Notes under the pieces: generated by a model
What the model saw: only the letters and a program-made list of their open reading frames with translations
What the model was told of the DNA's origin: nothing
Databases searched by the model: none
Translations under genes and position numbers: made by a program
DNA from: Limnomonas spitsbergensis
Lineage: Eukaryota > Chlorophyta > Chlorophyceae > Chlamydomonadales
Direction: 5' to 3'
Length of the DNA: 64,000 nt
NCBI GenBank assembly: GCA_037349105.1
Contig: JAYJMM010000032.1
Location: forward strand, 1,640,501 to 1,704,500
Shown: positions 256 through 64,000 of the stretch, one piece after another
How the letters are laid out: each line of letters opens with the position of its first letter
Position numbering within the stretch: the first letter of the stretch is position 1

Positions 256-3200
256 GGAGCGGAGCTGGAGCGTAAGCTGGAGGCTAGGAAGACCGCGGCG
301 GCCCTCATGCTCTCGAGAATGGAGGTGAGCTCAAACGGGTTACGGGTTTAGGGTTTAGCCCTCATGCTCTCATGCTCTCGAGAATGGAGGTGAGCTCTAA
401 CGGGGAGAGAGAGGGAGGTGTGGAGGCGGGGTCAATGAGGGGTTTAGGGAGGAGGTGAAACTCCAGTGCCTCCCTGTTAAGAGAAATACTTAATTAGGGT
501 ACGAAAATGCTGAAATAGTTGAGTTTCAGGGCAGATTCTACAAATGGTTTGCTCTAGCACTTACCGCTGTCCACTATCTCATACGCGGACCTGCGTGATG
601 GATGCAGTGTACAGCTGGGTTTTATAAGTGTGTCCCTTTCCAAACACAGGCTGTCCCCATACCCTGTCCCTCCACACTTCCCGCTCCCTCCACACTTCCC
701 CCCCAGGATCGTCATCATGACCATATCCTCAAGGCCCTGACCTCAGACATGGCCGCTGCATTGGCCACCTCCCTGCCCCTCCACACTTCCCACTCCCTCC
801 ACACTTCCTCCCAGGATCGTCATCATGGCCGTACCCTTAAGGCCCTGGCCTGAGACATGCCCCAAATGGCTGCCTCCCTGTCCCTTCACACTTTCCCATC
901 CCTTCACACTTCTCACTCCCTCCGCACTTCCTCCCAGGACCGTCATTATGAACGTACCCTCAAAGCCCTGGCCTCAGACATGCCCGCTGCATTGGCTGCC
1001 TCCCTGGCCGGCCAACTGGGGGGCATCAGGAGCCAGGTGGATGGCATCAGTGAGGAGGTGGCGCTGGCCAACCGACAGATCAGCTACGTAGCAGAAGGTG
1101 GGAGGAGTGTGGAGGGCAGGGGGGGTATGAAACGGCAGGCTCTAATGCGAGCTCCGAAATCTGAATCCCTGGTTTCTGATCTTGAACTTCACACTGAACT
1201 CGCCTTTCAGGCGGGTCTGGACAGAAGGCTGCCTCCGTGATGCCGGATCTAGGTGACGACCAATCCTCAAACCTCATATTGAGCAGCCAAGGCCTCCGTG
1301 CTAAGCTGCACGCCATGGTGCTGGTAGATCCGGTGAGTGGATCTGCTGGTTGGGTCATGGTGCTGGTAGATCCGGTGGGTGGATCTGCTGGGAGAGTCAT
1401 GGGATTGATATATCCGGCGAGTGGATCTTCTGGATGGATCATGGTAGTGGTATATCCGGTGGTACCTCTGCTTGTTTGTAATCCACTAATTGAGTTCCCT
1501 TGCAGCTGCCACCCCACTCCTTTCCCCACCCCGCCTGCGCACTGGCCCACCAGCCTGCCCACCTAACAACCTAACCACCTGACCACCTACCAGCCCAACC
1601 CTCCTGCCTGCCCACCTAACCACATAACCACCTGACCACCTGACCACCTGGTGGCCCAACCTTCCGGCCCAACCACCTAACCACCTGACCACCTGACCAC
1701 CCGCCGAACCAACCCTCCTGCCCGACCACCTAACCACCTCACCACCTGACCACCTGCCGGCCCAACCCTCCTGCCCTCCCACCTGCCCACCTAACCACCT
1801 GACCACCTGCCGACCCAACCCTCCTGCCCTCCCACCGGACCACCCAGGTTCCGAAGCCCCCTCGTGCGACAAGCCCCCTGGCCCATGAGGGCGGGGCGGC
1901 AGGAGCAGTGGTCGTGCGGGACAGCACCCTGCCCTCCAGCACGCCCCCAGACGTCCTGGATCCCACACTCCAGGTGGGACCGGTCATGCTTATCACACAC
2001 ACTGTCACACAAAGTGTCATGTCATCACTGAATGCCATTGTGACACCAGAGTCACACATCAACATGACGCATTCCCTCACACTTTCCACACATGGCGCCA
2101 CACCACGTTCACACTTCATCACACGTTCTGGATATTTCTTTACGCTTCACACTTAACCTGGATGCCTGCTCCCCCGCCCCTGCTTCCCTTGCTCCGACAC
2201 AGGACGCCCGCCACCCCGTTCCCACCGACGACGTTGCCGTGGCGGTCGGAAGGGCCATCTTGGACTCCCTGAAGAGGGCACGCCTGCTGCAGGGTGGGGC
2301 AGGGCAGGAGGGGCGTGCAGCGGCCGCACAGGGGCAGCCGGCATCGTCGGCCGTGGCCCGGTCCGTGGGGCTGGCCGTCCTGGACACCCTCAAGCGGGGT
2401 CACCCACCTCCAGGGCCCACCCACTGGGCCCACCCGCCACCAGGGCCGAGCTCCACTGATCCAGGGGCTCTCCTTAAGGTACTGTCAGCCTGGCTTTGGC
2501 CCAGGCTGCGCTGTTTCCTTAACTCTCATACCCCCCACGGGGCAAAGCTTTCTTTCTTTCCCCTAGCCTGGCACTAGGGCTGATGTTTTGTTGTACGGCG
2601 CTAGTGTTGGTACCGGTGAAAAGCCCGTTTCGGGGCTGGCGGTGGGATGAGGGAAACAAAGGCACGACAAGGGGTCAATCGCCGGGTGCCCATGCTCATC
2701 GCACCTGTCGTTTGCTTTGCTTGAACTCTATGGATGGAAGTTTGATATTACTCAAGTAGCTGAGGAGTTAGGCTGGCTGAAGTGTGAGGATGGTCGAAGT
2801 GTGATGCCTTGCCTGCCCAATGTCCACACCCAGAGGAGGACAAAAACGCCAATGACCGTGCTGTCACTCTTTGAGTCACTATTTTCCATACTCATGTTGC
2901 GCGCCATACCAATCTTACTGGCACTGCCTCCTCACACCAGCTCAGACCATCAAGACAGGTCCATACACTTGTTCCACACTTTCTTCACACCCTTTCCACA
3001 CCAGATGGTCGGCGCCTCTGTGCTGGAGTCCTTGCGGATTCAGCGGCCTGATGGCGCGCTGCTGGCCCCCGTGGAGGTGCCCTCAGGCCTGGCCCACGCT
3101 GTGGGGGTGGCGGTCATGGACTGCCTGGCTGAGCGCCAATGGCAAGAAAATGTGAGACATTATTCGAAACCGGATTTTGAATTCATGCGTGTGTGTGTGG

Positions 3201-6200
3201 GGGGGGTATATCGGGTTGTAGCGTTGTGGGGGTGGGAGGGTGTCGGTCATGGGTTGCCAGGCAGAGCGCCAATGGCAGCAGAATGTGAGGCATGATTCAA
3301 ATTAGGATTTGAATTCATGTGTGGGGGGCGTGTAGGGCGTTAGCATTGTGGGGGTGGCTGTCATGGACTGCCTAGCAGAGCTCCGTTGCATTCGAGTTCG
3401 TGCGTAACTGCATATTTTCATGACGGCGTGCCCTGCAAAGACCTGCAGCATCGCGTCTGATTTATGGATCATTCTTTAAAGGTTGGACGTGTTTATGGAT
3501 TTCGAAAAGCTCATGACACACACGCAGTCACACATTCCTGCTCACACACCCAGCCCCTGCTGCCACTGCTCTTTCTAATATCTAGCACGAGGAACACCTC
3601 TACCACACACGCACACCCTCTATATTTTTGTTTTTCCGTTGCACGCCTCATGCATGTGCTGCAGCTGCTATCCGTCTGTCACTACTTCATACATGTCGCC
3701 TGCTGCTACCTCCTCCTTGCCACTACTTCATACCTCCTCTCTGCTGCTGCTGCTGCTGCTGTTGCTGCTACTGTGCTACTACTGTTGCTTATACTTCATG
3801 CCTCCTCTCTGCTGCTGCTACTGCTGCTGCTGTCAGGGTGGGCTGGGGGTCCTAGGATCTGCCGTGTTGGATTCCATGGAAGAGGCGGCTAAGAGCAGGG
3901 TGCGGGCCAGCGGGGCAATGCTGCTAGCGCCCGGCCAGCCTCCACCACCACCCATGCGGTCTCGGAGCCAGGTGAGCAACAGACGTGTGGTTCTGGAGCC
4001 AGGTGAGTGGTAGGTGTGTGGTCCCAAAGCCAGAAGAGTGGGAGGAACGTGGTTACAGAGCCATGTGAGTGGTTGCGTTTGGTTTCGGAACAAGCCGGTG
4101 TATATGATGTGGTTCTGGAGCTAGGTGTGTGTGAGGAATGCTGTATATTCTCAATATATGCACCCCTGGGCCTTTCCATGTCCTTTTCCATTGAGTATCC
4201 TATCCCACACTCAAACCACCTCAACCACTGTCACCGCACCATCACCCCCATCCACCTCACCCACCCCGATTTAGGTTGTCCAAGCTGTTGGTGCTGCAGT
4301 GTTGGATAGCATGCACCCCGAACAGGCAGGGGGGCCGCCACGCCCTCCTGGCTTGGAAGCCTCGGTTGGGGCAGCGACATTGGTGGAAATGCGGCAACGC
4401 AAGCTGCAAGAAAGAAAGGTGCGTGAAGGGTGGAGTGGCCATTCTAAATTCAAATTCAAATTGATGGGCGTGGACATTAAGAGAGGATAATGGGTGTGTG
4501 GGGTCGCGGCGAATTTTGAATTTGAACATTCGAATGTTGATGTGTGGGCACAAGCATCAGATGAAGACGAGGAGTACCGGGTGCGGTATGCATGCTTAGT
4601 TTGGCGGTCCGGCCAACTCAGTATTTAAATGCAAACATTTGGAATGTTGACCATGGTTGCAAGCTTTACGAGGCAAAAGTGATTTGAACCACTTTCAAAT
4701 TACACAGGCAGCGCCAGCCATTGTCGGCTGATACTTCCACACGTCTCCACACCTTTCAAATCCCACAGGCAGTGTCGGCTGTTGTCGGTGAGGCTGCCAT
4801 GGACGCCCTTATAAACGCAAGGCAGCTGGGGGGCTTCACGACCCGGCCACCGCCCGTCCCTGCGCCCGCGCCCTCTGCCGGCGTTGTGGAGCTGAACGCC
4901 TCCACGCTTCGGCAGCAGCTGGAGGCCCTGCTCAACAGGAAGCAGGCGGACTCGGAGCGTGTGAGGTATCAGGTGTGAACGGGGTATGAACAGCAATCCA
5001 GGAAGCCGATCTGGAGGTTGTGAGCTGTCGATCAATGTTGGATATAGCTAGGGGATATAGCGAATTGATGTGTGAAATTTTTAGTTTCTTCCAAATAAAA
5101 AGGTACAGACAAATACAGTAAGGTATGAACACTTCACTCCACTCCAGCAGGCAGGTTCATAGCGGGATTCATAGCCGGATTCATAGCGGGATTCATTGTG
5201 CATACAGTGTCAGACATGGACAGGCCAGCCGGCTTGGGAGGCCGGAGGGTTGTGTGTCAAGGGAAGGGCTTCGGGTGTAAATCTTTCAAGGTATCAGTCA
5301 GGTATCTGTTCTAGGTTGTTGACTGGGATGCAGGGGTCACCGCCTGGGTGTGAGACGTCAGCGTCCGCATGTTTTGATGATGAACAGGTTTGTAATTTTG
5401 CATTGCCGGTACCGGTGTGGGCGATATGATGGTCCAATGCGCCTTGGGGGGCGCCCAGGACATTGACAAATTGAATGAAAGTGTGGAACACAGGTGTGTG
5501 GTTTGTGAGAAGCTGCGGCAAGAATCGCAAGATCACCTGCCTGACGCAAGGGTGCGCCAGCAGGAGCGTTAGGCTGGATTGTTTATGTGGGAGAGGTTAG
5601 GGATGACGGGAGATGTAGCATTATCAGTTGTCAGATAGGGATGACGGGAGATGTAGCATTATCAGTTGTCAGATAGGGATGACGGGAGCTGTAGCATTAT
5701 CAGTTGTCAGATAGGGATGACGGGAGCTGTAGCATTATCAGTTGTCAGATAGGGATGACGGGAGCTGTAGCATTATCAGTTGTCAGATAGGGATGACGGG
5801 AGCTGTAGCATTATCAGTTGTCAGATAGGGATGACGGGAGCTGTAGCATTATCAGTTGTCAGATAGGGATGACGGGAGATGTAGCATTATCAGTTGTCAG
5901 ATAGGGATGACGGGAGATGTAGCATTATCAGTTGTCAGATAGGGATGACGGGAGATGTAGCATTATCAGTTGTCAGATAGGGATGACGGGAGATGTAGCA
6001 TTATCAGTTGTCAGATAGGGATGACGGGAGATGTAGCATTATCAGTTGTCAGATAGGGATGACGGGAGATGTAGCATTATCAGTTGTCAGATAGGGATGA
6101 CGGGAGATGTAGCATTATCAGTTGTCAGATAGGGATGACGGGAGCTGTAGCATTATCAGTTGTCAGTTGCCTAATGCGGCAGTGTGAAAGCAGGGGTAGT

Positions 6201-26200: not shown

Positions 26201-28985
26201 ATAGCATGCCCATGGCGATTCACAGGGCAGAACCAACATAAGAGGCTACATGAGGGTTCAGTTTCCGGTTCACAACATGAGCCACACAGCACCGCGTGAG
26301 CAGTGGCAGCCTATTGAATAGTTTTCGGTCATCTGATATTGTTTGGACATCACAACCCAGAGCCAGTTCCATGCCAGCATTGCATGACAGTCCACATGGC
26401 ATGGCAAACATATGACAACCCGCATGGCACGATAACCTAGTAAGAGCCACCATTGTACGGCACATGGCATGGCATATGCATGGTAGCTCACAATGCATGG
26501 CAACCACGCAACAGCCCCATGGTATGACACCCACATGGCGTGGCATACAAAGGACATAACACTCACATGGCAGCTCACAGGGCATGGCACAAACATAACA
26601 AGCTACATGAGGGTTCAGCTTCCGGTTCATAACATCGGCCGCATAGCACCGCGTGAGCAGTGGCAGCCTATGAATAGTTTTCGGTTATCTGATATTGTTT
26701 GGACATCATAACCCAGTTCAGGAGTAAGCTCGATGCCAGCATGGAATCCTAGTCTACATGAGTGTATGACTTAACATGGCACAAGCATAGCCACCCCCAT
26801 GACTTCTTGGCATTGGCAGGGCAAGCAGCAGGGCATCCCGCATGGCAGGCAAGCTGCGAGGCAGCCCTCATGGCATAGCAAAGTGCATGGCATCCCGCAT
26901 GGCACCGCACCTGCATAGCGCCGATTGTTCCAACGATAAAGAATATTGTGTAGGCTTTGTACACACTCGGCGAAAAGCGGCCAATCAGCAGCAGCACCGC
27001 GGCGTGCAGGCCAACCATGTTGATGACAAAGGTGTAGCCGCCCCACGCTGCGAAGGAGAATAGACACACAAGATAAGGATCAGGGCCCTGAAGGCGGCAA
27101 GCTCTAGGTCAGCAGCAAAGACTCGACTCAGAAAGGCTGACGTTTTGTAAGCAAAAACTATTGTAGGTTCAAAAAAATACAGACATGCGCATGCATGATT
27201 GAAGGGCCGTGGGATGATAGGTTGATAAATAGAAGCACGCTGGAGACCGTAGCGCATGATTTGACTAGGGCCCACAACAGCTAATGGCTGTCAACTGAAT
27301 ACACATGAGGTAGCAGCCAGGGCACCTTATCATGCTCCCTCCTAGAGCTGACTATAATATATGAATATATCCTTTGCAACCTGAAATCAGGGGTCTGCTC
27401 AAAGAGGTGAAGTATTTATTAGCTCAACATGTATTCTCAATGAGCACTGACCTGCCACCATATAGGTGTAGGCAAAGCCGGCCAACACACTGATGGGCCA
27501 CGAGGTGGCAGACCGCAAACAGCGGCACCAGGTGTAGAAGACCAGGACCATCGCAGTGACCTGAGACCCAAAGAAATGGAGTGATGGTCAGCGCATTTTC
27601 AAACACATAAGCAGCCCGTTCTGGTATAAAAATCGTATGATTTCAAGGTGGGCATGGAAAGATCATGGGCATATACGGTGTACACCCAAGGCCATGCCAC
27701 CTTGCTGAGTTGCTGCTGCGCTGGAAGAGTGAAAGGCAGCAGCAGGATGAAGATCCTTCCGCGTTCACCCATCAGGATTGAATACCATGTTTTTTGCATC
27801 AACAACTGCCTGTAGTTTCTACTGACTGACTGACTGACTTAAGGGGGAAGTCCAGAAAGGAGCAAATGGTAGTAGGACTGACAGTGGCTTAAGATTGATG
27901 GGAGCTAACGTCAAAATGTTCCGGCCACAGTGGGAGGATCCCTTCTTCCATGCCCCAGTGCGCACACAGGCGTATATGCCGGCCTTGCTTAATCCAAAGC
28001 ACACCAACAGGCGCATGACAGCTGGCGCCCGCAGGCTGGCGTCATACGGTTCAGGACATAATGAGGGTGGCGGCTGTCAGCCCAAGTCAGACCAACCCAC
28101 AGCAGCTATATTGAGCTGTTAGCTGTCGTGCCAAATCATCTTGATGAAGCTGTAGACCTGCCCAACAGGAATCAAGACAGGCATAGTGCGCCCCACCCCA
28201 GCTGGGATGTTCCTGGAGGACCCAACATGGTGATCACTGCACTCACAGCGATGCTCTCATTGTCGTAGCCACCTCCCGCCGAGCGCATGATGTGCGCTGG
28301 TATGATGGCCATGATGAGAGCCGCTGCAGGTGCGGCAGAGGGGATGCCAGAGCACTCTGCTGCCAGCCATCCCGTCAGGACGGAGGCCAGGCCACCAAAC
28401 CAAGTAGGCACAAAGACGCAGATGTCATTCAGGGACATGCCCAAGTCCAGGCTCTGAGGCAGGATTCGATTGAGCAGGTGCCATACACCGACGGACGTCA
28501 GTTGCATGCCGGGGAAGATGGTCGTCCCCACAGGTCGTCCGAGCGGATACCAAGATTTGTGATCGAACCAAGTGAAAAACTTCTGAATGCCGTTCTCGAA
28601 GAGATATCGCGTGGCAGCATAGTTGAACCACGGGTCAAATTCTGCAAAGAAGAGAGAAAGAAAGATTGCATTGCCGTGGTGGTTAGAGGAATGAGGTGAG
28701 TAACAATAGGCGCGGTCGACCCCTTTTTCCCTTTTTCGCCCCAGCTCACTTCCTGTGGCTTGGTAGCCTGGTCCCCGGTTTCACACCGATCATTGTATCA
28801 TGCATTAGACTGGCGCACTCACCGTGGATCAGACGTCCATACTCCTTGATCGCAAACATCCTGATCTCATATGCCATCCAGAACGCAACGGCCATGACGG
28901 CAGCGCGAAACCCGAAGGTTACCACGCTCTTTACCGTGATCATGTTGCCAAGTTCTGAACTGTGCAACACACCGCAGTAGATCAT
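17257..28985 (-). CDS. STT3: Oligosaccharyltransferase catalytic subunit STT3
   Basis: Eighteen exons, all phases consistent: 28985-28823, 28641-28247, 27560-27452, 27047-26911, 24672-24598, 24130-23996, 23428-23318, 23081-22933, 22397-22299, 21954-21887, 21452-21257, 20833-20738, 20256-20110, 19749-19572, 19301-19210, 18614-18470, 18300-18209, 17353-17257 (TAG). The product is 827 aa. It transfers the lipid-linked glycan to Asn-X-Ser/Thr in the ER lumen. Visible signatures: EFDPWFNY at 55-62, YDNE at 180-183, the flexible-loop motif SVAEHQPTT at 366-374 and the catalytic WWDYGYQI at 627-634. Many hydrophobic segments come first, then a soluble C-terminal domain. A Ser/Pro/Lys linker (exon 11) separates the last membrane segments. 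The C-terminal SPHIARIGNSVY and CPGQYPP stretches recall protist-type STT3s, from memory. The ATG at 28985 follows an in-frame TGA at 29012-29010. Confidence 0.96.
19468..19652 (-). repeat. Duplicated end of STT3 exon 14 inside the following intron
   Basis: Plus-strand 19468-19521 (AGGTGCTTGCACAGCTCTTG and onward) is a diverged copy of exon sequence 19599-19652, about 131 bp away. The exon-end donor itself is no longer recognisable in the copy. Confidence 0.75.
21960..22075. repeat. Short tandem repeat beside an STT3 acceptor
   Basis: About four diverged copies of a unit near 30 bp, GACAGGTGCACACAAATGGG, lie immediately upstream (minus sense) of the acceptor of STT3 exon 10. Confidence 0.75.
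24640..24870 (-). repeat. Acceptor-spanning copies before STT3 exon 5
   Basis: On the minus strand CCTCAG-GTGCCTGTGGTTGC (true acceptor, exon start 24672) is preceded by CGTCAG-GTGCTTGTGGTTGC at about 24771 and a more decayed copy near 24850. Each copy includes about 35 bp of exon sequence (..TGGACCC.GCTCAAG). Confidence 0.85.
25229..26735. repeat. 360-bp satellite, about 3.3 copies, in STT3 intron 4
   Basis: Copies begin at 25229, 25594, 26254 and 26611 with TTCAG(T/C)TTCCGGTTCA and share TTTTCGGT.ATCTGATATTG. They are rich in the palindromic tetramers CATG/GCATGC. The second copy is split by a separate insert at about 25812-26100. Confidence 0.92.
25812..26100. mobile_element. Palindromic insert, organelle-like or MITE-like
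   Basis: A perfect inverted repeat, 25812-25883 versus 25891-25962 (72-bp arms, 7-nt loop), is followed by a second hairpin (25966-25993, CCTCGTAGGCC/GGCCTACGAGG) and about 100 bp of very AT-rich DNA. The insert interrupts copy 2 of the 360-bp satellite after GTACGGCACATGG; the satellite resumes near 26101. Volvocalean organelle genomes are known for such GC-rich hairpins in AT-rich DNA, so a nuclear copy of organelle DNA is one explanation; a foldback element is the other. Confidence 0.85.
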
Positions 28986-30700: not shown

Positions 30701-33700
30701 CTACGCCGCAGCGGGGAACAGCTCCTGCTTCCGCACTTCCCGGCTGTTCTCAGGCAGCAGCCACGGCAGGGCAACCAATGTGCCCGTGGCCACAGCAGCA
30801 CTGGCCGCGAAGGCCAATGTGGCGCCGTTTGAGTGCCAGATAGAGCCAAACACACAGTTGGCTGACATGGCAATAACGGCCATGACAGTGTAATAGATAC
30901 CGAAGGCGGTCCCGCGCAGGTGTGCTGGCGCTTGACCCACAACAATGCTCAGCAGCGGCCCATTCATGACACCTGGGGCACAGCAGCCAGACAAGTTTTC
31001 AAATTCAAATTCAAATTAAGTTGCGGATGTGAGTCGTGACAGGTTTGCTGAGCTGGCATGACATGTGCAGCTGTGAAGCCTCCGTTAAGGACGGCTGTGG
31101 GTTATCCGGATCCGGGTTCAAATGACCTAAGGGTTGAGGGTCATAGACAGTGGTGTGCCATTGCGCCGTGATTCAAAACCCATAAAGCAATTACTGAACC
31201 TTACTGGTGAAGCAGCTAAATGAGCCCTAAGATAGCAGTGACTGATACTCAGCTACGTAATTCAGCCACTGTAAGGACCGTAGTTGGCACAGCGCTGGTT
31301 ATGTACCAAGTTAAGTAACTCACCGATGTGAACACCCATGAAGGCTAAGGAGAAGAAGACGGCCCAGGGGTGGGTGCCGCTGGCCATGAGCACGAGGTCT
31401 GCTGCAATATGCGCCCCCAGGCCCACTGCAAATGTAACACGAGGGCCGTACCTGCGAGCAAGGAGATTCAAATTACATTTCGGTAACATCAGTTCCATAA
31501 AAGGAGGTACAGATTGAGCAAATTACTTGACACCCACACACTCTCCCGGATCATTGACAAACTTAACACCCTGCCCCATCCAGCCCTGCCTAGTGGCCAT
31601 GCCCCTTTTCTCATATGCCCTCATAATCGGCCCTGCCCAGTAGGTCTGCTCCCTTCACGTACTCCCACACCCATCCTTGCTCAAGGTCGTGCCACCTCTC
31701 ATCCCCATTCAAAGTTTTGAACCCCTTCAACCCTCACCCCCGCCTGCCCCTCCCACTCACTTGTCATCTAGGAGCCCCAAGGGCCATGCCGCCACGAAGA
31801 TGGTGAGAGCCAGGGCCGCAATAACCAGCGTGGACTCCGCCTTTCCAAAGCCCACCTCCATGGCCCTGGCTTCCAGCATGGACTGTATGAGCAGGGAGGG
31901 GGGGGGGAGGAGCAAAAGAATCTGTTAAGAGGCGCAAAAACAATGTGATGAACCGGCGCTGTTGGCTGCATCGGTTATGTACATGTGGGGCTAGGGTCGG
32001 CGAATCGAAGCACAAAATCATGGCATGGGCTGTAATTTAGTAATATCCATGTATTGGATGGATATTACTGATTTACTGGAAACGATAAGTATGAACCTTC
32101 ACTGACAGTACGGCGGCGACTCCTCCACACTTCAGACACCCACCTCATTGATGTGCGATGAGCAGTACAAGGCAATGACCACCAGCATGCGGTAAAAGTT
32201 GGTGCCCATGCTCCCCACGTCGTGCACAAACTTCTTGAAGTCAAAGCCCTGCCGCTGCTGCTGCTGCTGTTGCTGATGCTGCTGCTGTTGCCTCTCGCTC
32301 TCCTCCCGCGAAGACGAAGACGCCTGGCTGCCAGAGGCGATCTGTTGCTGCAACAGCTCCTCCTGTTGTTGCGCCTGCTGTTGCTTCAACAGCGCCCGCC
32401 GGTCCTCCTCCTTTTGGTGCTCAGGTCGGACGTGGCTGGGGACTAGTAGCACGAAGGCAAGACAGCTGGCCAGGCTGACTGAGGCCGCCATGGTGAAGAT
32501 GAACTGGTAGTTGTTGCCAGAGGCCTGCCAGGAGTCAAGGGATAAGGGTGTAGGGTTTAGGGTTAAGTTGCCAGAGGCCTGTCAGGGGTTAAGGGTTTAG
32601 GGTAGAGTTGTTGTCAGAGGCCTGCCAAGGGGGGGAAGGGGACTTTAAGTGAGGGGTGAAGCAGGTGTAAAACACTCAAACCCTCGAGAAACCTGAACCC
32701 TGAACCCGTCAGTGCACACCTTAACCCTGACACTCCGTGCGTGCACCTTTCTCAAATCGTCAACCCTAACCCAATCCTTTCGCACCTTCATGAGGAAGTA
32801 GGCCATGATTGCTCCCACAGCACTGCCCCACTTCCGCAGGCTCTGTGCGAATCCGAAGCAGGAGCTGCGCGTCTTCTCAGGAGCCAGGTCACTAATGAGG
32901 GCATCTCTGGGCGCTGCCTGTGGACAGGTAAGGGGACGAATGAAGCGTCAGGGTGCAGTGTCAGGGTGGAGGATGAAGCAGGGCCCCTACAGCTGTTTGC
33001 ATGCGGCTCTGCTCACAGGACACAAATGCATCATGAATAGGAGGAGGGGGTTACGGGCCAGTGTTCATTTTTCGGGACTCAGCAACATGTCAGCTTCACT
33101 CAGGCCTCAGGCCAGGGGGGCAATTTGTGGCCAGCCACGTTGCTTTCACCGCAAGTCGTGAGCCGGTCCAGGATTGCTCCCAATGGGGCCTTCGGCGGCC
33201 TGTCCAAGGTGGACTGGTGGCGGAAAAAGAAGCACTGATAGGATAATGGGCTTGCATGTCCACGCTCCGCCCGGGTCCACACCGCCCGCGCGTTCACACA
33301 CCTGCACTCCATTCGCCAGCCGGTCGATCACTTTAGACGCAAACAGCGAGCCGACCTCGGTCGCTCCGCTCATCCCAAATTTTGCCATCGCGCCCATCGC
33401 GAAGCCAACCGTGATGGCGCCCTTGCGCGACTTCATCATGTCGCTGACCACGCCGGAGAACATGCGCACAATGTAGGAGAAAGCCTCCATGAGGCCCTCA
33501 AACATCCCCATGCTGCGCATCGTCATCTTGAGCTCCGTCACCATGTAGATGGGCAGCAGCGTCTGCGACAGAGTGGGAGGTGCGAGACATACGGCTTCAG
33601 AGGGAAGCAGACCTCTGGAACACAATGAGTGAGCGAGGGAGGAAAACAGACCACGAGTGATTAGAGGGACGGAAACGGCCCCCTAAGCCCTTGATCTCTA

Positions 33701-53400: not shown

Positions 53401-56400
53401 GCGCAGCGGAGCCAGCCCCTCTGCCAGCCAGGCGGCGCCCTCAGGTCCCAGGCGGTTGCCACTGAGGTCCAGGTGCATCAGGCTGGAGCATCCTTGCAGG
53501 GATTCTGAAAAGTAGAGGGAGGGGGGGGGAGGGATGATGGGGGGGGGGAGGGAGGGGTGATGAGGGGGGGGTGAAGGTGGACTGAGAGGGGAGGTGTTGG
53601 TGAGAGATGAGTTGTAGAGGAGGGGGGGGGGGGGGGATGAGAGGCGGAGGAGAGGGATGATGCGTGGAGGGGGAGAGGTTTCATCACTCGTTGCGCCACG
53701 AAAGCATTGCCCCCCTCCAGCGAAAGCCGCGACCTCCTGCTTGTTAACAGCGGCAATGGTTCACTTCTCCGGGGTGTTCACATATGCACTCCTCCAGGTT
53801 TGACTCCTCGCAGGATCAGGATCCTGATGAGGACGGAAAATATTACGGGCAATTGCATCAGGGCAGTCACGGACCTTCAAATTCTACTCGGCCGGAGCCA
53901 ATGATTTTGCCATTCTGGTCGGCGGCCGATCAGCTGTCACTGCCCTGACGGGCACTTGCTCGGTCAGCCTCCACTTGCTGCCATATATTTAGTGCCCCTG
54001 CCCCCAGGCCCCCGACTAGAACTTGTCGCCACATAATGGGCACTATCTTGGTAAGCTTCCGCTTGTAGCAATTTACTTACAGTGCCCCTGGCCCCCTGCT
54101 GGAAAAATCGACAGCAACTTTCTTGAAAATGCTTCAATTGTTGCAGTTTCAATACAGTCCCCTCCCAGCCCCATCCCAGCAGGAGACAAGGCCCCTCGTT
54201 TGCTTTTGTTGTAATTCCAATCCCTGGTTTCAATACAGCCCCCCTAGCCTCTACCAGCAAAGGCCATGGCCCCTTGTTTGTTGACGCCGTTAGAGGTGTA
54301 GATGAGGGTGCGCAGGCGCGTGTTGCCCCTCAGGGCGCGGGCCAGGCGGGCGGTGGCGCGAGGCGGGATGGCACAGCCAGACACCTCCAGGGTAGTGAGA
54401 GGGGAGGAGGGACCCAGCAGGTCAGCGAGGTGGCCTGAGTGGGGGGGTAGGAAGGGGGAAGCAGTGGCAGGGGGGGGGGATGAGAGGCAAGGGTGGGTGG
54501 CGGGCAGGTGGGGCAGAATGAGGCCAGAGGCAGGGCTAGATGTGTGTGGGGGGGGGGACGAGGTTACGGGGCAGAGGCAGGGGCAGGGGCAGAGGCTGGT
54601 ACTGTGGGGGGGGTATAAAGGTAGGAGGGGCAGAGGCAGGGTCAGGGGAGAGACGAGGGAATGATGTGGTTACAGCGTACACTATGCATTTAGCCTTGTT
54701 TGCAGGTGTGGCCGCTAAGGGTTGAGGGTTTAGGGGTTAAGGGTTAAGGGTAAGCCAAAGCCATGCTTGTAGGTGTGGCCGTTTAGGGTTGAGAGGATAG
54801 GGTTTAGGGGTAAGTGTCAAGGGTTAAGGGTAAGCCAAAGCCTTGTTTGCATGCGTCAGACAGAGGCCAACATAGGCCCACCCAGCTGAACCCGCCCACC
54901 TGCTGCAGTCCCATCCATCTCCACTTTCACCAACCGCAGTGTCCGCAGCTGAGGGTGGGAGGCCACCTGGGCAGCCACCTGCTGGAAGCCCCTGCCTCCA
55001 ACCTGGGAAAAATGTGATCGTGTTTGAGGTGCAGAAGTGTGATGTGTGTGAAAGTGTGACACGTGACAGCATCGCAGCTGACTTACAAGCCCCCGTAACC
55101 CACCAGGAAAGGGTATTGTGCCAGCTCATTTGGCGTGCGGTGTGTTATAGCGTGAGGTGTGTGATCGCGTGAGGTGTGTGATCGCGTGAGGTGTGTGATC
55201 GCGTGAGCTGTGTGATCGCGTGAGCTGTGTGATCGCGTGAGATGTGTGATCACGTGAGATGTGTGATCACGTGACGTATGTGGTGCACACATTAATGAGA
55301 CATGTCACAGGCCCCTGCGTCCCCCTGACAGGTAAAGTGTGACTGTCCAGGTGTGACAGTGTGACCAGTACGATCTCCCTCGCCTCCCGCTCCCCCCCCC
55401 CCCTCCCCTCCTCCTACCTTGCATTTACAGAGGGTGAGGTGCTGCAGGCTGCGGAAGTGCAGCAGGCCGTCCCGCACCATGCTGCTGAGGCAGCGCTCCC
55501 CGTTGTGGGGGTACTCCAGCGCCCAGGTGGTGATGCCCATACCTTCATACCTGCGACAGGGATAGGTCACACATATGTCCCCTGGTGTGAAACAAGTGTG
55601 GCCTGAAAGTCTGCCACGGTATGTGAAGTGTGATGAGGCGTGTTCAGGACAGCAGCAAGCGGCCTCTGGTTGAGATGGGCGCATCAAGCTGCAGTGATAC
55701 CGGTATATGGCATGTTTGGTTCCAAAAACCTTGGAAGAAACAGCGGCTGTCATGCAAGGCCCACACAATATGCACCAGCTCCTGGAACACGCGCTGCTCC
55801 GAATCCACCCTTAACCCCTCACTCAATCCCTCACTCCCCTCACTCAATCCCTCGCTAGACTCCGCACTCAATCCCAACCTCATAACCTCATCCTCATCCC
55901 CCCCGCCCCCTGCACTCGTACATCTGGACAACCATCACAATTCGAACATGCCATGGCGCAAACACTGCTTTCACCAGCAAGCACACATGCCATGGTACCA
56001 GCCATCCAAATAAGCAGATTCAACTTTTGAGTTCGAAATTACCTTGCAAACGCTTCCTGCACCAGTGTGACCACCTGCCCTGGTACCAGCACGCCGCTTC
56101 GCCAGGGTATGAGGAAGTGTGGAACCAGAGGTACCTTGCCACCACCATTCGACAGGCCCGCTGGTACCTGCGATGAAGCAGATTAGGGGGGAGGGTGTCG
56201 GAGACAATGATGGACGTGTGGCTGGCTGGCTGGCTGGATGGACGGGGGGTTGATGGCTGGATGGATAGATGGACGGGAGGGTGTCGGAGATGGATGGGAG
56301 AGAAAGGCATTTCATATATATCACCCTCACATGAATATATATACATACCACATTTCCCATCAGGGTGTCCAATAGATCCACCCCCCATACCCATGGAACG

Positions 56401-59400
56401 GCGCCTCAATAAGGCTGTCTCGACCTCTCCCCCCTCCCTCCCCCACCTGTTGCGTGGATGCAGGGCTGGTTGGCGGAGAGCTGCTGGTAGCCGGGGAGGG
56501 CAGAACACCCTGCACGACACCGGGGTGCAGGGCGGGTGACTGGGTGGGTGACTGGGCGGGTGGTTGGGTGGGTGGGTGACTGGGAGGGTGAACATCTCTT
56601 GACACAGCCACGTAACAATTGGACAGGGTAAACCAGGTTGGCGGCAAAGCATTACAGTGAGGGCACAGCAAGGTCAAATAAAACACAATCACACTTCAAA
56701 CACGATATAGTCACTCTTCTGCAAAGGCACCCCTACCGGCGTGACGCTGACGTCGCCATCCTCCAACAGCTCGCTACTGACCACTCAGTCACACTTCAAC
56801 CCTATGTGAGTCACTCTTCTGCAGAAACCCACCTCCCGGAGTGACTCTTGACGTAATCGTTCCCACAGCTCATTGCTGATCACACAATCACACTTCCCCC
56901 CATGCACGTCACACTTCTGCAAACACCGAACTACCGGTGTGATGCTGACATCATCGCCCCCCTCCCCAGCTCAAAACTAATCACACAAGAACACTTCAAA
57001 CACGAGCGCCTGATGTGATTCACTCTTCCACAAAGGCCCACTTACCAGTGTGGCACTGATGTCATCGTCCTCCCCCAGATCACGACCGATCCCTCAGTCA
57101 CACTTAAACCACACATGGAACACTCTTCTGCCCAGGCCCACCCACCGGTGTGATGCTGACATCATCGTCTTCCCCCAGATCGAGACTGACCCCTCAGTCA
57201 CACTTAAACCACACATGAAACACTCTTCTGCCCAGGCCCACCCACCGGTGTGATGCTGACGTCATCGTCTTCCCCCAGATCGCGACTGACCCCTCAGTCA
57301 CACTTAAACCACACATGAAACACTCTTCTGCCCAGGCCCACCCACCGGTGTGATGCTGACGTGATCGTCTTCCCCCAGATCGAGACTGACCCCTTAAGTC
57401 ACACTTAAACCACACATGGAACACTCTTCTGCCCAGGCCCACCCACCGGTGTGATGCTGACATCATCGTCTTCCCCCAGATCGAGACTGACCCCTCAGTC
57501 ACACTTAAACCACACATGAAACACTCTTCTGCCCAGGCCCACCCACCGGTGTGATGCTGACGTGATCGTCTTCCCCCAGATCGAGACTGACCCCTTAAGT
57601 CACACTTAAACCACACATGAAACACTCTTCTGCCCAGGCCCACCCACCGGTGTGATGCTGACATCATCGTCTTCCCCCAGCTCGTGACCGACCCCTCAGT
57701 CACACTTAAACCACACATGAAACACTCTTCTGCCCAGGCCCACCCACCGGTGTGATGCTGACGTGATCGTCTTCCCCCAGATCGAGACTGACCCCTTAAG
57801 TCACACTTAAACCACACATGGAACACTCTTCTGCCCAGGCCCACCCACCGGTGTGATGCTGACATCATCGTCTTCCCCCAGATCGAGACTGACCCCTCAG
57901 TCACACTTAAACCACACATGAAACACTCTTCTGCCCAGGCCCACCCACCGGTGTGATGCTGACGTGATCGTCTTCCCCCAGATCGAGACTGACCCCTTAA
58001 GTCACACTTAAACCACACATGAAACACTCTTCTGCCCAGGCCCACCCACCGGTGTGATGCTGACGTCATCGTCTTCCCCCAGCTCGTGACCGACCCCTCA
58101 GTCACACTTAAACCACACATGAAACACTCTTCTGCCCAGGCCCACCCACCGGTGTGATGCTGACGTCATCGTCCTCCCCCAGATCGCGACTGATCCCTCA
58201 GTCACGCTTAAACCACACATGAAACACTCTTCTGCCCAGGCCCACCCACCGGTGTGATGCTGACATCATCGTCTTCCCCCAGATCGAGACTGACCCCTCA
58301 GTCACACTTAAACCACACATGAAACACTCTTCTGCCCAGGCCCACCCACCGGTGTGATGCTGACATCATCGTCTTCCCCCAGATCGAGACTGACCCCTCA
58401 GTCACACTTAAACCACACATGAAACACTCTTCTGCCCAGGCCCACCCACCGGTGTGATGCTGACATCATCGTCTTCCCCCAGATCGAGACTGACCCCTCA
58501 GTCACACTTAAACCACACATGAAACACTCTTCTGCCCAGGCCCACCCACCGGTGTGATGCTGACGTGATCGTCTTCCCCCAGATCGAGACTGACCCCTTA
58601 AGTCACACTTAAACCACACATGAAACACTCTTCTGCCCAGGCCCACCCACCGGTGTGATGCTGACATCATCGTCTTCCCCCAGCTCGTGACCGACCCCTC
58701 AGTCACACTTAAACCACACATGAAACACTCTTCTGCCCAGGCCCACCCACCGGTGTGATGCTGACGTCATCGTCCTCCCCCAGATCGCGACTGATCCCTC
58801 AGTCACGCTTAAACCACACATGAAACACTCTTCTGCCCAGGCCCACCCACCGGTGTGATGCTGACATCATCGTCTTCCCCCAGATCGAGACTGACCCCTC
58901 AGTCACACTTAAACCACACATGAAACACTCTTCTGCCCAGGCCCACCCACCGGTGTGATGCTGACGTGATCGTCTTCCCCCAGATCGAGACTGACCCCTT
59001 AAGTCACACTTAAACCACACATGGAACACTCTTCTGCCCAGGCCCACCCACCGGTGTGATGCTGACATCATCGTCTTCCCCCAGATCGAGACTGACCCCT
59101 CAGTCACACTTAAACCACACATGAAACACTCTTCTGCCCAGGCCCACCCACCGGTGTGATGCTGACGTGATCGTCTTCCCCCAGATCGAGACTGACCCCT
59201 TAAGTCACACTTAAACCACACATGAAACACTCTTCTGCCCAGGCCCACCCACCGGTGTGATGCTGACGTCATCGTCTTCCCCCAGCTCGTGACCGACCCC
59301 TCAGTCACACTTAAACCACACATGAAACACTCTTCTGCCCAGGCCCACCCACCGGTGTGATGCTGACGTCATCGTCCTCCCCCAGATCGCGACTGATCCC

Positions 59401-61428
59401 TCAGTCACGCTTAAACCACACATGAAACACTCTTCTGCCCAGGCCCACCCACCGGTGTGATGCTGACATCATCGTCTTCCCCCAGATCGAGACTGACCCC
59501 TCAGTCACACTTAAACCACACATGAAACACTCTTCTGCCCAGGCCCACCCACCGGTGTGATGCTGACATCATCGTCTTCCCCCAGATCGAGACTGACCCC
59601 TCAGTCACACTTAAACCACACATGAAACACTCTTCTGCCCAGGCCCACCCACCGGTGTGATGCTGACGTGATCGTTTTCCCCCAGATCGAGACTGACCCC
59701 TTAAGTCACACTTAAACCACACATGAAACACTCTTCTGCCCAGGCCCACCCACCGGTGTGATGCTGACGTCATCGTCCTCCCCCAGCTCGTGACTGACCC
59801 CTCAGTCACACTTAAACCACACATGAAACACTCTTCTGCCCAGGCCCACCCACCGGCGTGATGCTGACATCATCGTCTTCCCCCAGATCGAGACTGACCC
59901 CTCAGTCACACTTAAACCACACATGAAACACTCTTCTGCCCAGGCCCACCCACCGGTGTGATGCTGACGTCATCGTCTTCCCCCAGCTCGTGACCGACCC
60001 CTCAGTCACACTTAAACCACACATGAAACACTCTTCTGCCCAGGGCCCACCCACCGGTGTGATGCTGACGTCATCGTCCTCCCCCAGCTCGTGACCGACC
60101 CCTCAGTCACACTTAAACCACACATGAAACACTCTTCTGCCCAGGCCCACCCACCGGCGTGATGCTGACATCATCGTCTTCCCCCAGATCAAGACTGACC
60201 CCTCAGTCACACTTAAACCACACATGAAACACTCTTCTGCCCAGGCCCACCCACCGGTGTGATGCTGACGTCATCGTCCTCCCCCAGATCGAGACTGACC
60301 CCTCAGTCACACTTAAACCACACATGAAACACTCTTCTGCCCAGGCCCACCCACCGGTGTGATGCTGACGTCATCGTCTTCCCCCAGCTCGTGACCGACC
60401 CCTCAGTCACACTTAAACCACCCATGAAACACTCTTCTGCCCAGGCCCACCCACCGGTGTGATGCTGACATCATCGTCTTCCCCCAGATCGAGACTGACC
60501 CCTCAGTCACACTTAAACCACACATGAAACACTCTTCTGCCCAGGCCCACCCACCGGTGTGATGCTGACGTCATCGTCCTCCCCCAGATCGAGACTGACC
60601 CCTCAGTCACACTTAAACCACACATGAAACACTCTTCTGCCCAGGGCCCACCCACCGGTGTGATGCTGACGTCATCGTCCTCCCCCAGCTCGTGACCGAC
60701 CCCTCAGTCACACTTAAACCACACATGAAACACTCTTCTGCCCAGGCCCACCCACCGGCGTGATGCTGACATCATCGTCTTCCCCCAGATCGAGACTGAC
60801 CCCTCAGTCACACTTAAACCACACATGAAACACTCTTCTGCCCAGGCCCACCCACCGGTGTGATGCTGACGTCATCGTCCTCCCCCAGATCGAGACTGAC
60901 CCCTCAGTCACATTTAAACCACACATGAAACACTCTTCTGCCCAGGGCCCACCCACCGGTGTGATGCTGACATCATCGTCCTCCCCCAGATCGAGACTGA
61001 CCCCTTAAGTCACACTTAAACCACACATGAAACACTCTTCTGCCCAGGCCCACCCACCGGTGTGATGCTGACGTGATCGTCCTCCCCCAGCTCGTGACCG
61101 ACCACAAAGTTGTGGCTCCGGAGCATCCTGCCCAGGGTGCGCTCCATGACTGGAGGCGGTACACGGCAGGCCTGGCAGTACAGAATGCAGCAGTACACGA
61201 TTCGGTGGAGACCTGATGCGGTACAGGCCACAACAGTGCATGCTGCAAGGATTGTATTCTTCTCTGTAGGAAGTGCCTACATTGTCTCCCCCCCCCTCCA
61301 CACTAAAACCCCTCCACACACACCCATCCACACTCCTCTCCCTCCACACTTCTCACCCCCTGTAGGCTGAGTGCGTCCCTGGCCAGCTCCTTGATGCCCG
61401 AGGTAGCGCCACCATACTGGTGTCGTGC
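47484..61428 (-). CDS. Leucine-rich-repeat protein, ribonuclease-inhibitor-like repeats (5' part incomplete)
   Basis: Exons: 61428-61357, 61171-61058, 56167-56043, 55550-55418, 55002-54900, 54434-54255, 53504-53328, 52838-52434, 50877-50702, 50444-50375, 50249-50127, 49506-49353, 48986-48821, 47586-47484 (TGA). Phases agree at all joins except 50702 to 50444, where an exon or border is wrong or missing. Repeats follow LxxLxLxxN..GAxxLAxxL: LRTLRLVKVEMDG, SSLMHLDLSGNRLGPEGAAW, LVSLDLSANSLSDAG and LRLIDLSSNEACDEGADAL. Such proteins are protein-binding scaffolds; no NACHT or kinase domain is seen. Exon 52838-52434 adds polyQ and an Ala/Glu-rich linker. Further N-terminal exons are expected to the right (a possible one near 61745). 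The 56168-61057 intron is a tandem array of its own splice donor. Confidence 0.75.
50983..51179. mobile_element. MITE-like element, copy 2
   Basis: About 197 bp with termini TACCGTAGATTTGCCTTGCC and, inverted, TACCGTAATTTTGATTTGCC. Same orientation and same internal landmarks as copy 1. It lies in an intron of the LRR gene. Confidence 0.82.
51290..52010. repeat. 26-bp minisatellite, about 27 copies
   Basis: Unit TTCACTCTTTCAACCCACCT followed by GCCGGG, with frequent one-base changes and a more divergent left side. In the minus (gene) sense each unit reads GGCAGGTGGGTTG, so it carries CAG-GTGGGT, usable in principle as acceptor or donor. It lies in an LRR-gene intron next to MITE copy 2. Confidence 0.92.
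52813..53080 (-). repeat. Acceptor-spanning copies before the LRR polyQ exon
   Basis: Minus sense: true CCTCCCAG-GTGCCAAGACCCTGG (exon start 52838); copy CTGGGCAG-GTGCCAAAACCCAACC about 127 bp upstream (52965); and a weaker GCCGAGACCCTGGTGGAGG near 53060. Confidence 0.78.
53160..53345 (-). repeat. Donor-spanning duplication after LRR exon 7
   Basis: Minus sense: exon end GTCTGCGATGTGGGCTTGCAGG with donor GTGAGTGGGGGTGTGTAGGG is repeated about 152 bp into the intron as GTTGGCGATGTTGTCCTTCAGG with GTGAGAGATGGTGTGCAGGG. A short GCGAGGCGGTGTTGC tandem repeat lies between. Confidence 0.8.
55138..55275. repeat. 17-bp tandem repeat, about 8 copies
   Basis: Unit GTGTGATCGCGTGAGGT, every 17 bp, with G/C and CG/CA variants; intronic in the LRR gene. 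Confidence 0.88.
56660..57040. repeat. Decayed edge of the 100-bp array
   Basis: About four degenerate units (GGCGTGACGCTGACGTCGCC, GGTGTGATGCTGACATCATC and others) that align to the homogeneous units to the right but differ at many positions, as expected at the old edge of a tandem array. Confidence 0.8.
57041..61058. repeat. 100-101-bp satellite, 40 copies, each carrying an LRR exon end and 5' splice site
   Basis: CCACCGGTGTGATGCTGAC recurs at about 57141, 57241, 57341, 57442 and so on to 61052. In minus sense a unit reads GTCGGTCACGAGCTGGGGGA (or GTCAGTCTCGATCTGGGGGA), then GACGATGATGTCAGCATCAC and ACCG, then donor GTGGGTGGGCC. The rightmost unit is the real exon end (61058). A rare variant (GATCCCTCAGTCACGCTT) recurs near 58190, 58791 and 59394, implying a six-unit (about 601 bp) higher-order repeat. 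CCCTCAG and CCCTTAAG variants alternate. Confidence 0.95.
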
Positions 61429-61690: not shown

Positions 61691-61852
61691 GTAGGTCATT
61701 GTCAGGTATCAGGTGCTTCAGGGACCCTCTGCTTCAGCTGGTCTTCCTGTTCCTCCCTGAGCAGAAAGAGCAGCGTCAGCTTCTGCCTTCTCTATCCATC
61801 CTTACTTTTACTCTGCCTATGACTTGTGTTATCTTCCTACCGGCATGCTTCC

Positions 61853-64000
61853 TAACCTGTAGTGTACTGGTATGCTTCCTAACCTGTAGTGTACCGGCAT
61901 GCTTCCTAACCTGTAGTGTACCGGTATGCTTCCTAACATGAGTGTACTGGTATGCTCCCTAACCTGTAGTGTACTGGTATGCTTCCTAACCTGTAGTGTA
62001 CTGGTATGCTTCCTAACCTGTAGTGTACTGGTATGCTTCCTAACCTGTAGTGTACCGGTATGCTTCCTAACCTGTAGTGTACTGGTATGCTTCCTAACCT
62101 GTAGTGTACCGGTATGCTTCCTAACCTGTAGTGTACTGGTATGCTTCCTAACCTGTAGTGTACTGGTATGCTTCCTAACCTGTAGTGTACCGGTATGCTT
62201 CCTAACCTGTAGTGTACTGGCATGCTTCCTAACCTGTAGTGTACTGGTATGCTTCCTAACCTGTAGTGTACTGGTATGCTTCCTAACCTGTAGTGTACTG
62301 GCATGCTTCCTAACCTGTAGTGTACTGGTATGCTTCCTAACCTGTAGTGTACTGGTATGCTTCCTAACCTGTAGTGTACCGGTATGCTTCCTAACCTGTA
62401 GTGTACTGGCATGCTTCATAACCTGTAGTGTACTGGTATGCTTCCTAACCTGTAGTGTACTGGCATGCTTCCTAACCTGTAGTGTACTGGTATGCTTCCT
62501 AACCTGTAGTGTACTGGTATGCTTCCTAACCTGTAGTGTACTGGTATGCTTCCTAACCTGTAGTGTACTGGTATGCTTCCTAACCTGTAGTGTACCGGCA
62601 TGCTTCCTAACCTGTAGTGTACCGGCATGCTTCCTAACCTGTAGTGTACTGGTATGCTTCCTAACCTGTAGTGTACTGGTATGCTTCCTAACCTGTAGTG
62701 TACTGGTATGCTTCCTAACCTGTAGTGTACTGGTATGCTTCCTAACCTGTAGTGTACCGGTATGCTTCCTAACCTGTAGTGTACCGGTATGCTTCCTAAC
62801 CTGTAGTGTACTGGTATGCTTCCTAACCTGTAGTGTACCGGCATGCTTCCTAACCTGTAGTGTACTGGTATGCTTCCTAACCTGTAGTGTACTGGTATGC
62901 TTCCTAACCTGTAGTGTACTGGTATGCTTCCTAACCTGTAGTGTACTGGCATGCTTCCTAACCTGTAGTGTACTGGTATGCTTCCTAACCTGTAGTGTAC
63001 TGGTATGCTTCCTAACCTGTAGTGTACCGGCATGCTTCCTAACCTGTAGTGTACTGGTATGCTTCCTAACCTGTAGTGTACTGGTATGCTTCCTAACCTG
63101 TAGTGTACTGGTATGCTTCCTAACCTGTAGTGTACTGGTATGCTTCCTAACCTGTAGTGTACTGGTATGCTTCCTAACCTGTAGTGTACTGGTATGCTTC
63201 CTAACCTGTAGTGTACTGGTATGCTTCCTAACCTGTAGTGTACCGGCATGCTTCCTAACCTGTAGTGTACCGGCATGCTTCCTAACCTGTAGTGTACTGG
63301 TATGCTTCCTAACCTGTAGTGTACTGGTATGCTTCCTAACCTGTAGTGTACTGGTATGCTTCCTAACCTGTAGTGTACTGGTATGCTTCCTAACCTGTAG
63401 TGTACCGGTATGCTTCCTAACCTGTAGTGTACTGGCATGCTTCCTAACCTGTAGTGTACTGGTATGCTTCCTAACCTGTAGTGTACTGGTATGCTTCCTA
63501 ACCTGTAGTGTACTGGCATGCTTCCTAACCTGTAGTGTACTGGTATGCTTCCTAACCTGTAGTGTACTGGTATGCTTCCTAACCTGTAGTGTACCGGTAT
63601 GCTTCCTAACCTGTAGTGTACTGGCATGCTTCATAACCTGTAGTGTACTGGTATGCTTCCTAACCTGTAGTGTACTGGCATGCTTCCTAACCTGTAGTGT
63701 ACTGGTATGCTTCCTAACCTGTAGTGTACTGGTATGCTTCCTAACCTGTAGTGTACTGGTATGCTTCCTAACCTGTAGTGTACTGGTATGCTTCCTAACC
63801 TGTAGTGTACCGGCATGCTTCCTAACCTGTAGTGTACCGGCATGCTTCCTAACCTGTAGTGTACTGGTATGCTTCCTAACCTGTAGTGTACTGGTATGCT
63901 TCCTAACCTGTAGTGTACTGGTATGCTTCCTAACCTGTAGTGTACTGGTATGCTTCCTAACCTGTAGTGTACCGGTATGCTTCCTAACCTGTAGTGTACC
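61853..64000. repeat. 27-bp satellite, about 79 copies, truncated by window edge
   Basis: Unit GGTATGCTTCCTAACCTGTA followed by GTGTACT, 27 bp, with GGTATG/GGCATG and TACTGG/TACCGG variants; one unit near 61940 lacks a few bases. Since 27 is divisible by 3 all frames stay open (for example KHTSTLQVR on minus); I treat these as non-coding. In minus sense the unit contains CTACAG-GTTAGG. Confidence 0.96.

Follow-up and report, generated by a model that had tools for sequence, protein, structure and literature searches.

How does an intron come to consist almost wholly of copies of its own 5' splice junction, and which of the copied donors would be used? Both questions are raised by a minus-strand gene that enters our 64-kb window (the whole stretch of DNA analysed) from the right. 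They bear on two older ones, how the spliceosome chooses among equal sites and how introns lengthen. We modelled nine exons of this gene from the window and the adjoining sequence of contig C32 (Table 1). In the predicted model all exon borders are AG..GT, phases are compatible, and no stop interrupts the frame. The first four exons look hydrophobic and membrane-like on visual inspection, and the later part of the gene has leucine-rich repeats (LRR_6, E = 1.3e-11, for a 606-residue model with further exons). No array-free paralogue of this LRR-type gene was found in the genome, where only the gene's own exons reached E < 0.1. A sequence search of the PDB gave no match, and neither did Rfam and tRNA scans of the window.

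Anatomy of the array intron

Tandem Repeats Finder described the array with a period of 100, 40.6 copies and 95% matches. The first-pass annotation had proposed about 40 tandem copies of the gene's own 5' splice site with near-identical donors, and both points stand. The string GGTGGGTGGGCC occurs 40 times, so that each unit carries a donor-like site, as in a splice-donor minisatellite. Cut at the donor, the array falls into 39 complete units, each 100 or 101 bp long and representing 18 distinct types in all; the donor string GTGGGTGGGCC is identical in 39/39. When the commonest unit was searched against the genome (260 Mb, 124 contigs), at least 42 matches were found, a lower bound since the search skips very common words. 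All of them lie at this single locus, as in a minisatellite or satellite.

Each unit consists of exon end, donor and intron start, as originally described, but the exon contributes 46 bp and the intron, donor included, 54 bp, instead of 45 + 45 bp. The earlier claim of a six-unit higher-order repeat holds for units 13-38, where the mean edit distance is 2.2 at lag 6, 1.5 at lag 12 and 4.6 at lag 1. Near the exon, units 0-12 are instead most periodic at lag 3 (mean edit distance 2.2). Higher-order amplification is thus supported, with two periods. At the end distal from the exon the units are decayed. One decayed stretch, which includes the last array unit, aligned at 77% identity (score 235) and a second, 56920-56737, at 71% (score 158), each against a null maximum of 70. 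The last piece, 56736-56686, has 75% identity and a score of 48, under the 95% null of 53. Beyond it lies the intron tail, which, besides itself, has 34 partial matches elsewhere, within tail positions 91-164 and at 75-90% identity.

The exon 61171-61058 ends with ..EDDHVSITP at donor GTGGGT in phase 0 (CCG/GTGGGT, the slash marking the junction here and below), just as first read. That reading had this exon spliced directly to the exon at 56167, across a 4.9-kb intron (56168-61057). Our gene model departs from it: a 63-nt exon with borders gtgcag/../gtgggg intervenes in phase 0-0, and the array intron shortens accordingly. The proline/serine linker encoded by this small exon reads PPTSP here and PPDSP in two relatives, P0001 and P0002; that of a third, P0003, is different. 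The sequence supports a predicted intron of an LRR-type gene that is nearly all tandem copies of its own 5' splice junction. Without the units, it would be a few hundred bp long, like its neighbours of 185, 279 and 492 bp.

Table 1. Positions of the array intron, the exons of its gene and other introns with junction copies. Numbers are window positions; those above 64000 continue the window along contig C32.
Feature	Position	Strand	Basis or remark
Exons 1-4 of the LRR-type gene	73792-73709, 73333-73160, 72616-72429, 71766-71559	-	Predicted
27-bp satellite in an intron of the LRR-type gene, two introns upstream of the array intron	61838..64000, on to contig ~1711779	-	Repeat and gene model
Coding exon ARHQYGGATSGIKELARDALSLQG, upstream in the LRR-type gene	61357..61428	-	Gene model, alignment with relatives
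Coding exon ACRVPPPVMERTLGRMLRSHNFVVGHELGEDDHVSITP, phase 0 in and out	61058..61171	-	Splice signals, phase; P0001 and P0002 align
Final 46 bp of the exon, which form the exon half of the unit	61058..61103	-	Unit positions 55-100 match at 87%
True 5' splice junction of the array intron	61058/61057	-	Splice signals, phase
Array intron, 4548 bp (array, decayed units, and tail with acceptor gtgcag)	56510..61057	-	Gene model
Tandem array, 40 units of 100/101 bp, donor GTGGGTGGGCC in each	57034..61103	-	Tandem Repeats Finder, donor split
Decayed units, ~71-77% identity	56686..57045	-	Unit alignment; last piece below 95% null
Intron tail, 176 bp, without unit homology, 3' splice site at its end	56510..56685	-	Unit alignment, splice signals
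63-nt exon GVLPSPATSSSPPTSPASTQQ, phase 0-0	56447..56509	-	Splice signals; PP[DT]SP linker in P0001 and P0002, absent from P0003
Coding exon VPAGLSNGGGKVPLVPHFLIPWRSGVLVPGQVVTLVQEAFA-R	56043..56167	-	Gene model, alignment with relatives
Ninth modelled exon of the LRR-type gene	55550-55418	-	Gene model
Intron with copied exon end and donor (65 nt downstream) and copied acceptor and exon start	325..937	+	Scores 62 (null maximum 21) and 54 (24)
Intron opening with copies of its own exon end and donor, 42-bp unit	1333..1847	+	Score 57, null maximum 25
Intron with copy of exon end and donor 133 nt downstream	3152..3836	+	Score 49, null maximum 26

The window and the genome hold other repeats and gene families. 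The 27-bp satellite extends over ~9.4 kb in all and occupies most of its intron, with CAGGTTAGG in most units; many units at its far end differ in length by 1 base, perhaps from assembly noise. Four weak matches (E ~10) at G000:C124:6694281-6703247 lie exactly 2950 bp apart, a spacing that apparently reflects an unrelated large tandem repeat. Chlorophyll a/b-binding proteins gave 111 matches in the genome and kinesins 139, from which we take the source to be a green alga. Light-harvesting matches on several contigs (G000:C110:1203062-1255071, C109:176521-286068 and others) have near-equal scores, and several carry one in-frame TAG, which suggests recent family amplification or pseudogenes.

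Could misassembled long reads have produced the copy number, or the entire array? The 1-base length differences of the 27-bp satellite do resemble noisy reads. Yet the 18 unit types of the array follow an ordered pattern with the decayed units at one end, its 4.1 kb are within ordinary long-read reach, and low-copy versions of the same pattern occur at other junctions, as described below. An artefact of this kind is very unlikely.

Donor choice and the age of the intron

The first-pass annotation held that splicing at a later donor would add unit sequence to the mRNA. Reading frames refine this claim. All but one of the donor-like choices (41/42) meet a stop, TAA, 39 nt into the intron, and the first donor alone is open. 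Because reading past the first donor runs into this TAA, an intact protein needs the outermost donor. We infer that this donor is the one used in the RNA; if so, the splicing machinery must probably separate the true site from its copies by position.

A different role would have the units act as small exons or alternative donors, yielding variable proteins or a poison switch that lowers expression. Forty equal donors would suit such a role, as would some single-unit mini-exons whose frame is open, including 33-nt ones from 9 units, and a 42-bp junction unit in another gene of the window would be read in frame. Against it stand the stop met once the first donor is skipped, the absence of a repeated segment at the array position in the relatives' proteins, and the properties of the commonest unit. 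There the AGs have pyrimidine fractions of only 0.25-0.55 over the preceding stretch of at most 20 bases, and the sole mini-exon of a length divisible by three carries a stop. With such poor acceptors, stops and wrong lengths, we rejected mini-exons as the main function of the units, and use of the units in general seems to us quite improbable.

Where did the unit come from? Relatives of the encoded protein were identified in several ways: P0001 with a query lacking the 63-nt exon (E = 1.3e-13), P0002 with a longer model (E = 2.1e-68, 53% identity over 66%), and P0003 and P0004 by searching with the alignment. The end of the exon can be aligned with the coding sequence of relatives (DFVIDDELGKEEE and DFVINEALGREEE against NFVVGHELGEDDH), FVVGHELGEDD at this exon end corresponding to their FVIDDELGKEE and FVINEALGREE. 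This indicates that the array was probably derived from an ancestral coding end. By its sequence, the exon is the likely source of the array unit.

The relatives also speak to the age of the intron. P0002 and P0003 have one uninterrupted stretch from PW.. to ..FSR, which is divided among six exons in this genome. Going by the protein reading, five introns, including the array intron and the 27-bp-satellite intron, are missing from both. P0001 is uninterrupted over the last two introns of this stretch, and covers those two only. Residues resembling a read-through intron 3' end precede PW in P0002 and P0003, which suggests that both derive from genomic DNA; for P0003, whose longest contig is 13.9 kb, a genomic origin is probable. 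Because the relatives' proteins read through its position, the array intron appears to be lineage-specific. In an unrooted tree this gene pairs with P0003 at a support of 0.71, and P0001, P0002 and P0004 lie on the other side. This grouping leans toward intron gain in this lineage over loss in the relatives, but we do not claim a gain.

These same observations would suit an intron that was born, and not merely enlarged, by a tandem duplication that created new splice sites: such an intron would be absent from relatives, as it is from the PW..FSR stretch of P0002 and P0003 and, for the last two introns, from P0001, and the grouping with the probably genomic P0003 also counts in its favor. But the junction is CCG/GTGGGT and not AGGT. 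An acceptor probe scored 16, under null means of 20.5 (whole intron) and 18.2 (its last 1500 nt), and the intron part of the unit does not resemble coding sequence. The unrooted, weakly supported tree is also compatible with loss in the relatives. We regard birth by duplication as unlikely, and favor enlargement of an existing intron.

Junction copies in other genes

The array intron has smaller counterparts, some of them in the same window, which the first-pass annotation left unmentioned. At the left end of the window, an unrelated plus-strand gene (gene A) repeats its exon end and donor after positions 324, 1332, 3151 and 3971, and its acceptor and exon start before position 938. The LRR-type gene, too, carries three copies of an acceptor, the one that precedes PWHHLDLLRTL. 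Among kinesin loci, the exon end ..SKLTRLLQ/gtgaca of L042 is followed by three junction-spanning copies, and /GATTCCCTGGGTGGC (DSLGG) of L043 is, together with its acceptor, copied twice upstream. The LLQ/ and /DSLGG ends are, we presume, conserved kinesin motifs.

At window positions 1333-1461, the junction array has a 42-bp (14-codon) unit; splicing at the copied sites would insert repeats in frame and could thereby give alternative proteins. In L040 (G000:C124:7568601-7573000, numbered in minus-strand orientation), a ~170-bp unit is present four times at ~2966-3650 and contains the exon end ..DSRLTFLLQ followed by GCAAGT; the true donor may be of GC-AG type. The donor of L040 exon 2712-2966 is very poor, and our model probably ends that exon in the wrong place.

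We surveyed junctions with a 42-bp probe (30 bp of exon and 12 bp of intron) spanning each junction and compared with up to 1500 nt of its own intron. To count as a match, a copy had to reach a Smith-Waterman score of at least 26 and outscore every one of 100 or 200 dinucleotide-shuffled versions of its intron; a first pilot used 60 shuffles. The set unselected for repeats comprised 14 kinesin loci, found by homology, and seven other segments. Kinesin batch 1 consisted of nine loci from 139 genome matches, chosen for several exons close together; 7/37 matches were dropped where no stop-free exon could be defined, leaving 30 exons. Batch 2 consisted of five of 12 further loci, with 0/17 matches dropped. 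For the seven other segments, readable exons were picked from the lists of a gene finder trained on 16 hand-made exons (a self-trained version over-predicted and was dropped). Pfam confirmed five of the seven, namely STT3, MFS, UbiA and two synaptobrevins, and did not confirm the gCA and C124 segments. The MFS transporter and STT3 oligosaccharyltransferase genes of the window (30701-33562 and 18209-28641, respectively, minus strand) were read exon by exon.

With genes noticed by eye left out (gene A, its upstream part and the LRR gene), 29/160 junctions were copied in their own intron versus 1/160 in the wrong-side control (Fisher p = 1.6e-8), in predicted gene models some of whose exon ends are uncertain. 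The copied junctions comprised 14/80 donors and 15/80 acceptors. Acceptor copies had at first appeared rarer (4/52, versus 9/51 for donors), a difference that disappeared with more genes. Kinesin batch 1 gave 7/29 donors and 8/30 acceptors (15/59; wrong side 0/59), and batch 2 gave 6/17 and 5/15 (11/32; wrong side 0/32). The seven other segments gave 1/34 donors and 2/35 acceptors, with 1/69 on the wrong side. The genes noticed by eye had 10/33 donors and 5/33 acceptors copied, with 1/66 on the wrong side. Counts depend somewhat on the seed, with 9, 12 and 11 of 67 donors in the window-area set, and 6/29 for batch 1 donors with another seed. Kinesins (26/91; wrong side 0/91) and other segments (3/69) differ in frequency (p = 5e-5), several kinesin genes looking paralogous and their junctions not all independent. 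The rate thus varies among genes, and we claim no genome-wide figure.

Probes from the interiors of exons and introns served as controls; these include the genes noticed by eye, and probes within one array are not independent. Exon interiors matched the adjacent intron in 13/462 cases (8/156 for kinesin batch 1, 3/54 for batch 2 and 2/252 for the window-area set), the 8/156 being due in part to copies that reach deep into the exon. Intron interiors matched the rest of their intron in 155/666 cases, a rate not different from that of donors (p = 0.32), which fits near-neutrality of junction copies.

The similar rates for intron interiors and donors (155/666 and 14/80) can also be turned the other way. 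If local repeats are as frequent inside introns as at their ends, the array could be an ordinary intronic minisatellite that touches an exon by chance, with no general pattern behind it; the low count in the seven unselected segments points in the same direction. What weighs against chance contact is the kinesin set, where more than a quarter of the junctions (26/91) have a copy in their own intron and none on the wrong side, together with copies that hold conserved coding bases, for example at the LLQ/ and /DSLGG ends. We consider chance contact quite unlikely.

How good are the copies as splice sites? The best ones keep GT in 18/22 cases and AG in 17/19 (genes noticed by eye included; 2/43 matches, with the junction outside the aligned block, were omitted). 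Their motif scores are often, but not always, like those of the real site. For 13 copied donors in seven introns, reading on meets a stop in 10 cases and stays open up to the copy in three. Two of these three are in the plus-strand 42-bp array, in frame, one having GC for GT; the third is out of frame. A closer look at 21 strong matches left two without a junction-spanning copy, donor 324 of gene A, whose copy was hidden by self-match masking, and an MFS acceptor.

Origin of the array and comparison with known systems

Our preferred explanation, to which we assign a probability of about 0.7, is a minisatellite born at the splice junction. Short local tandem duplications would be frequent in this genome, and one straddling an exon-intron boundary would copy the exon end, the splice site and the start of the intron. 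As long as the exon-proximal site stayed in use, the copies would become intron and leave the protein unchanged, making the duplication nearly neutral; duplications within exons would mostly be removed by selection. Unequal exchange or slippage could then have amplified the unit to ~40 copies with 3- and 6-unit higher-order repeats, turning an ordinary intron of a few hundred bp into one of 4.5 kb. Such amplification, higher-order repeats included, is normal for a minisatellite. Donors are copied about as often as the interiors of introns, and exon interiors seldom, which matches the prediction of this mechanism. The uneven frequency among genes counts against it, as does a contrast within the array: among units, the intron part varies less than the exon part (mean pairwise difference 0.023 versus 0.062), for which the explanation does not account.

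We see the array as an extreme case in a class that recurs in this genome, and as a variant of splice-site minisatellites and of tandem-duplication effects on introns. We lean slightly toward the broader view that junction duplication is a common route of intron growth, that about one-sixth of the sampled junctions (29/160) carry decoys, and that position, not sequence, directs the spliceosome to the exon-proximal site at both ends of the intron. If true, the 40-donor intron is a natural experiment on splice-site choice, at the far end of a continuum. Identical donors in one intron, along with the smaller cases elsewhere, would let position effects be measured without engineered genes. For gene finders, copied junctions are near-perfect decoys in exon prediction.

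One close parallel is a human interferon-induced transcript (6-16/IFI6), whose minisatellite of 12-nt units reportedly supplies multiple splice donors, several of them used, in a single gene. In both cases tandem units carry a splice donor beside an exon. Here the unit is 100 bp long with 46 bp coding, there are 40 copies, and other junctions are affected too; the stop 39 nt into the intron argues against use of multiple donors in our array, at least as its sequence reads. Zhuo et al. (PNAS 2007) are said to describe human introns that originated from tandem arrays and are alternatively spliced; introns derived from tandem arrays are the likeness that the title suggests.

A review covers the gain of introns through tandem duplication of AGGT segments in the genome (PMC3443670), and there are cases in Drosophila (PMC2891723) and further work (PMC4974935). 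The model resembles our case in that a duplication in or near an exon yields sequence that is spliced out, with the protein unchanged. It differs in that a new intron arises there from duplicated AGGT or proto-splice sites, whereas our case involves duplication of a donor or acceptor already in place, with growth of the intron. In the AGGT model both splice sites stem from one AGGT-like segment; in our intron the donor junction is CCG/GTGGGT and the acceptor has no match in the array. Introners, as outlined in PMC9860276, are repetitive DNA that makes introns, with copies dispersed in many genes, in contrast to an array unit found at one locus. We tried and rejected this identity for our unit: the genome search placed it at this locus only, and neighboring introns are unique or have two partial matches of 78-80%.

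Human tandem repeats that alter exon structure are the subject of PMC2812944, and a Chlamydomonas comparison notes long introns and leaves their cause open (PMC8226300). Among the titles and abstract openings covered, a scope mostly outside subscription journals, we found none stating that duplicated splice junctions make introns grow. In Chlamydomonas and Volvox, tandem repeats are enriched near intron-exon junctions, at both intron ends, and a role in splicing has been suggested (PMC3887541). That study, in the passages covered, counts repeats and makes no mention of junction copies, whereas the repeats described here are copies of the junction itself. Junction duplication, as a countable route of intron growth, may bear on the tandem repeats at green-algal intron ends.
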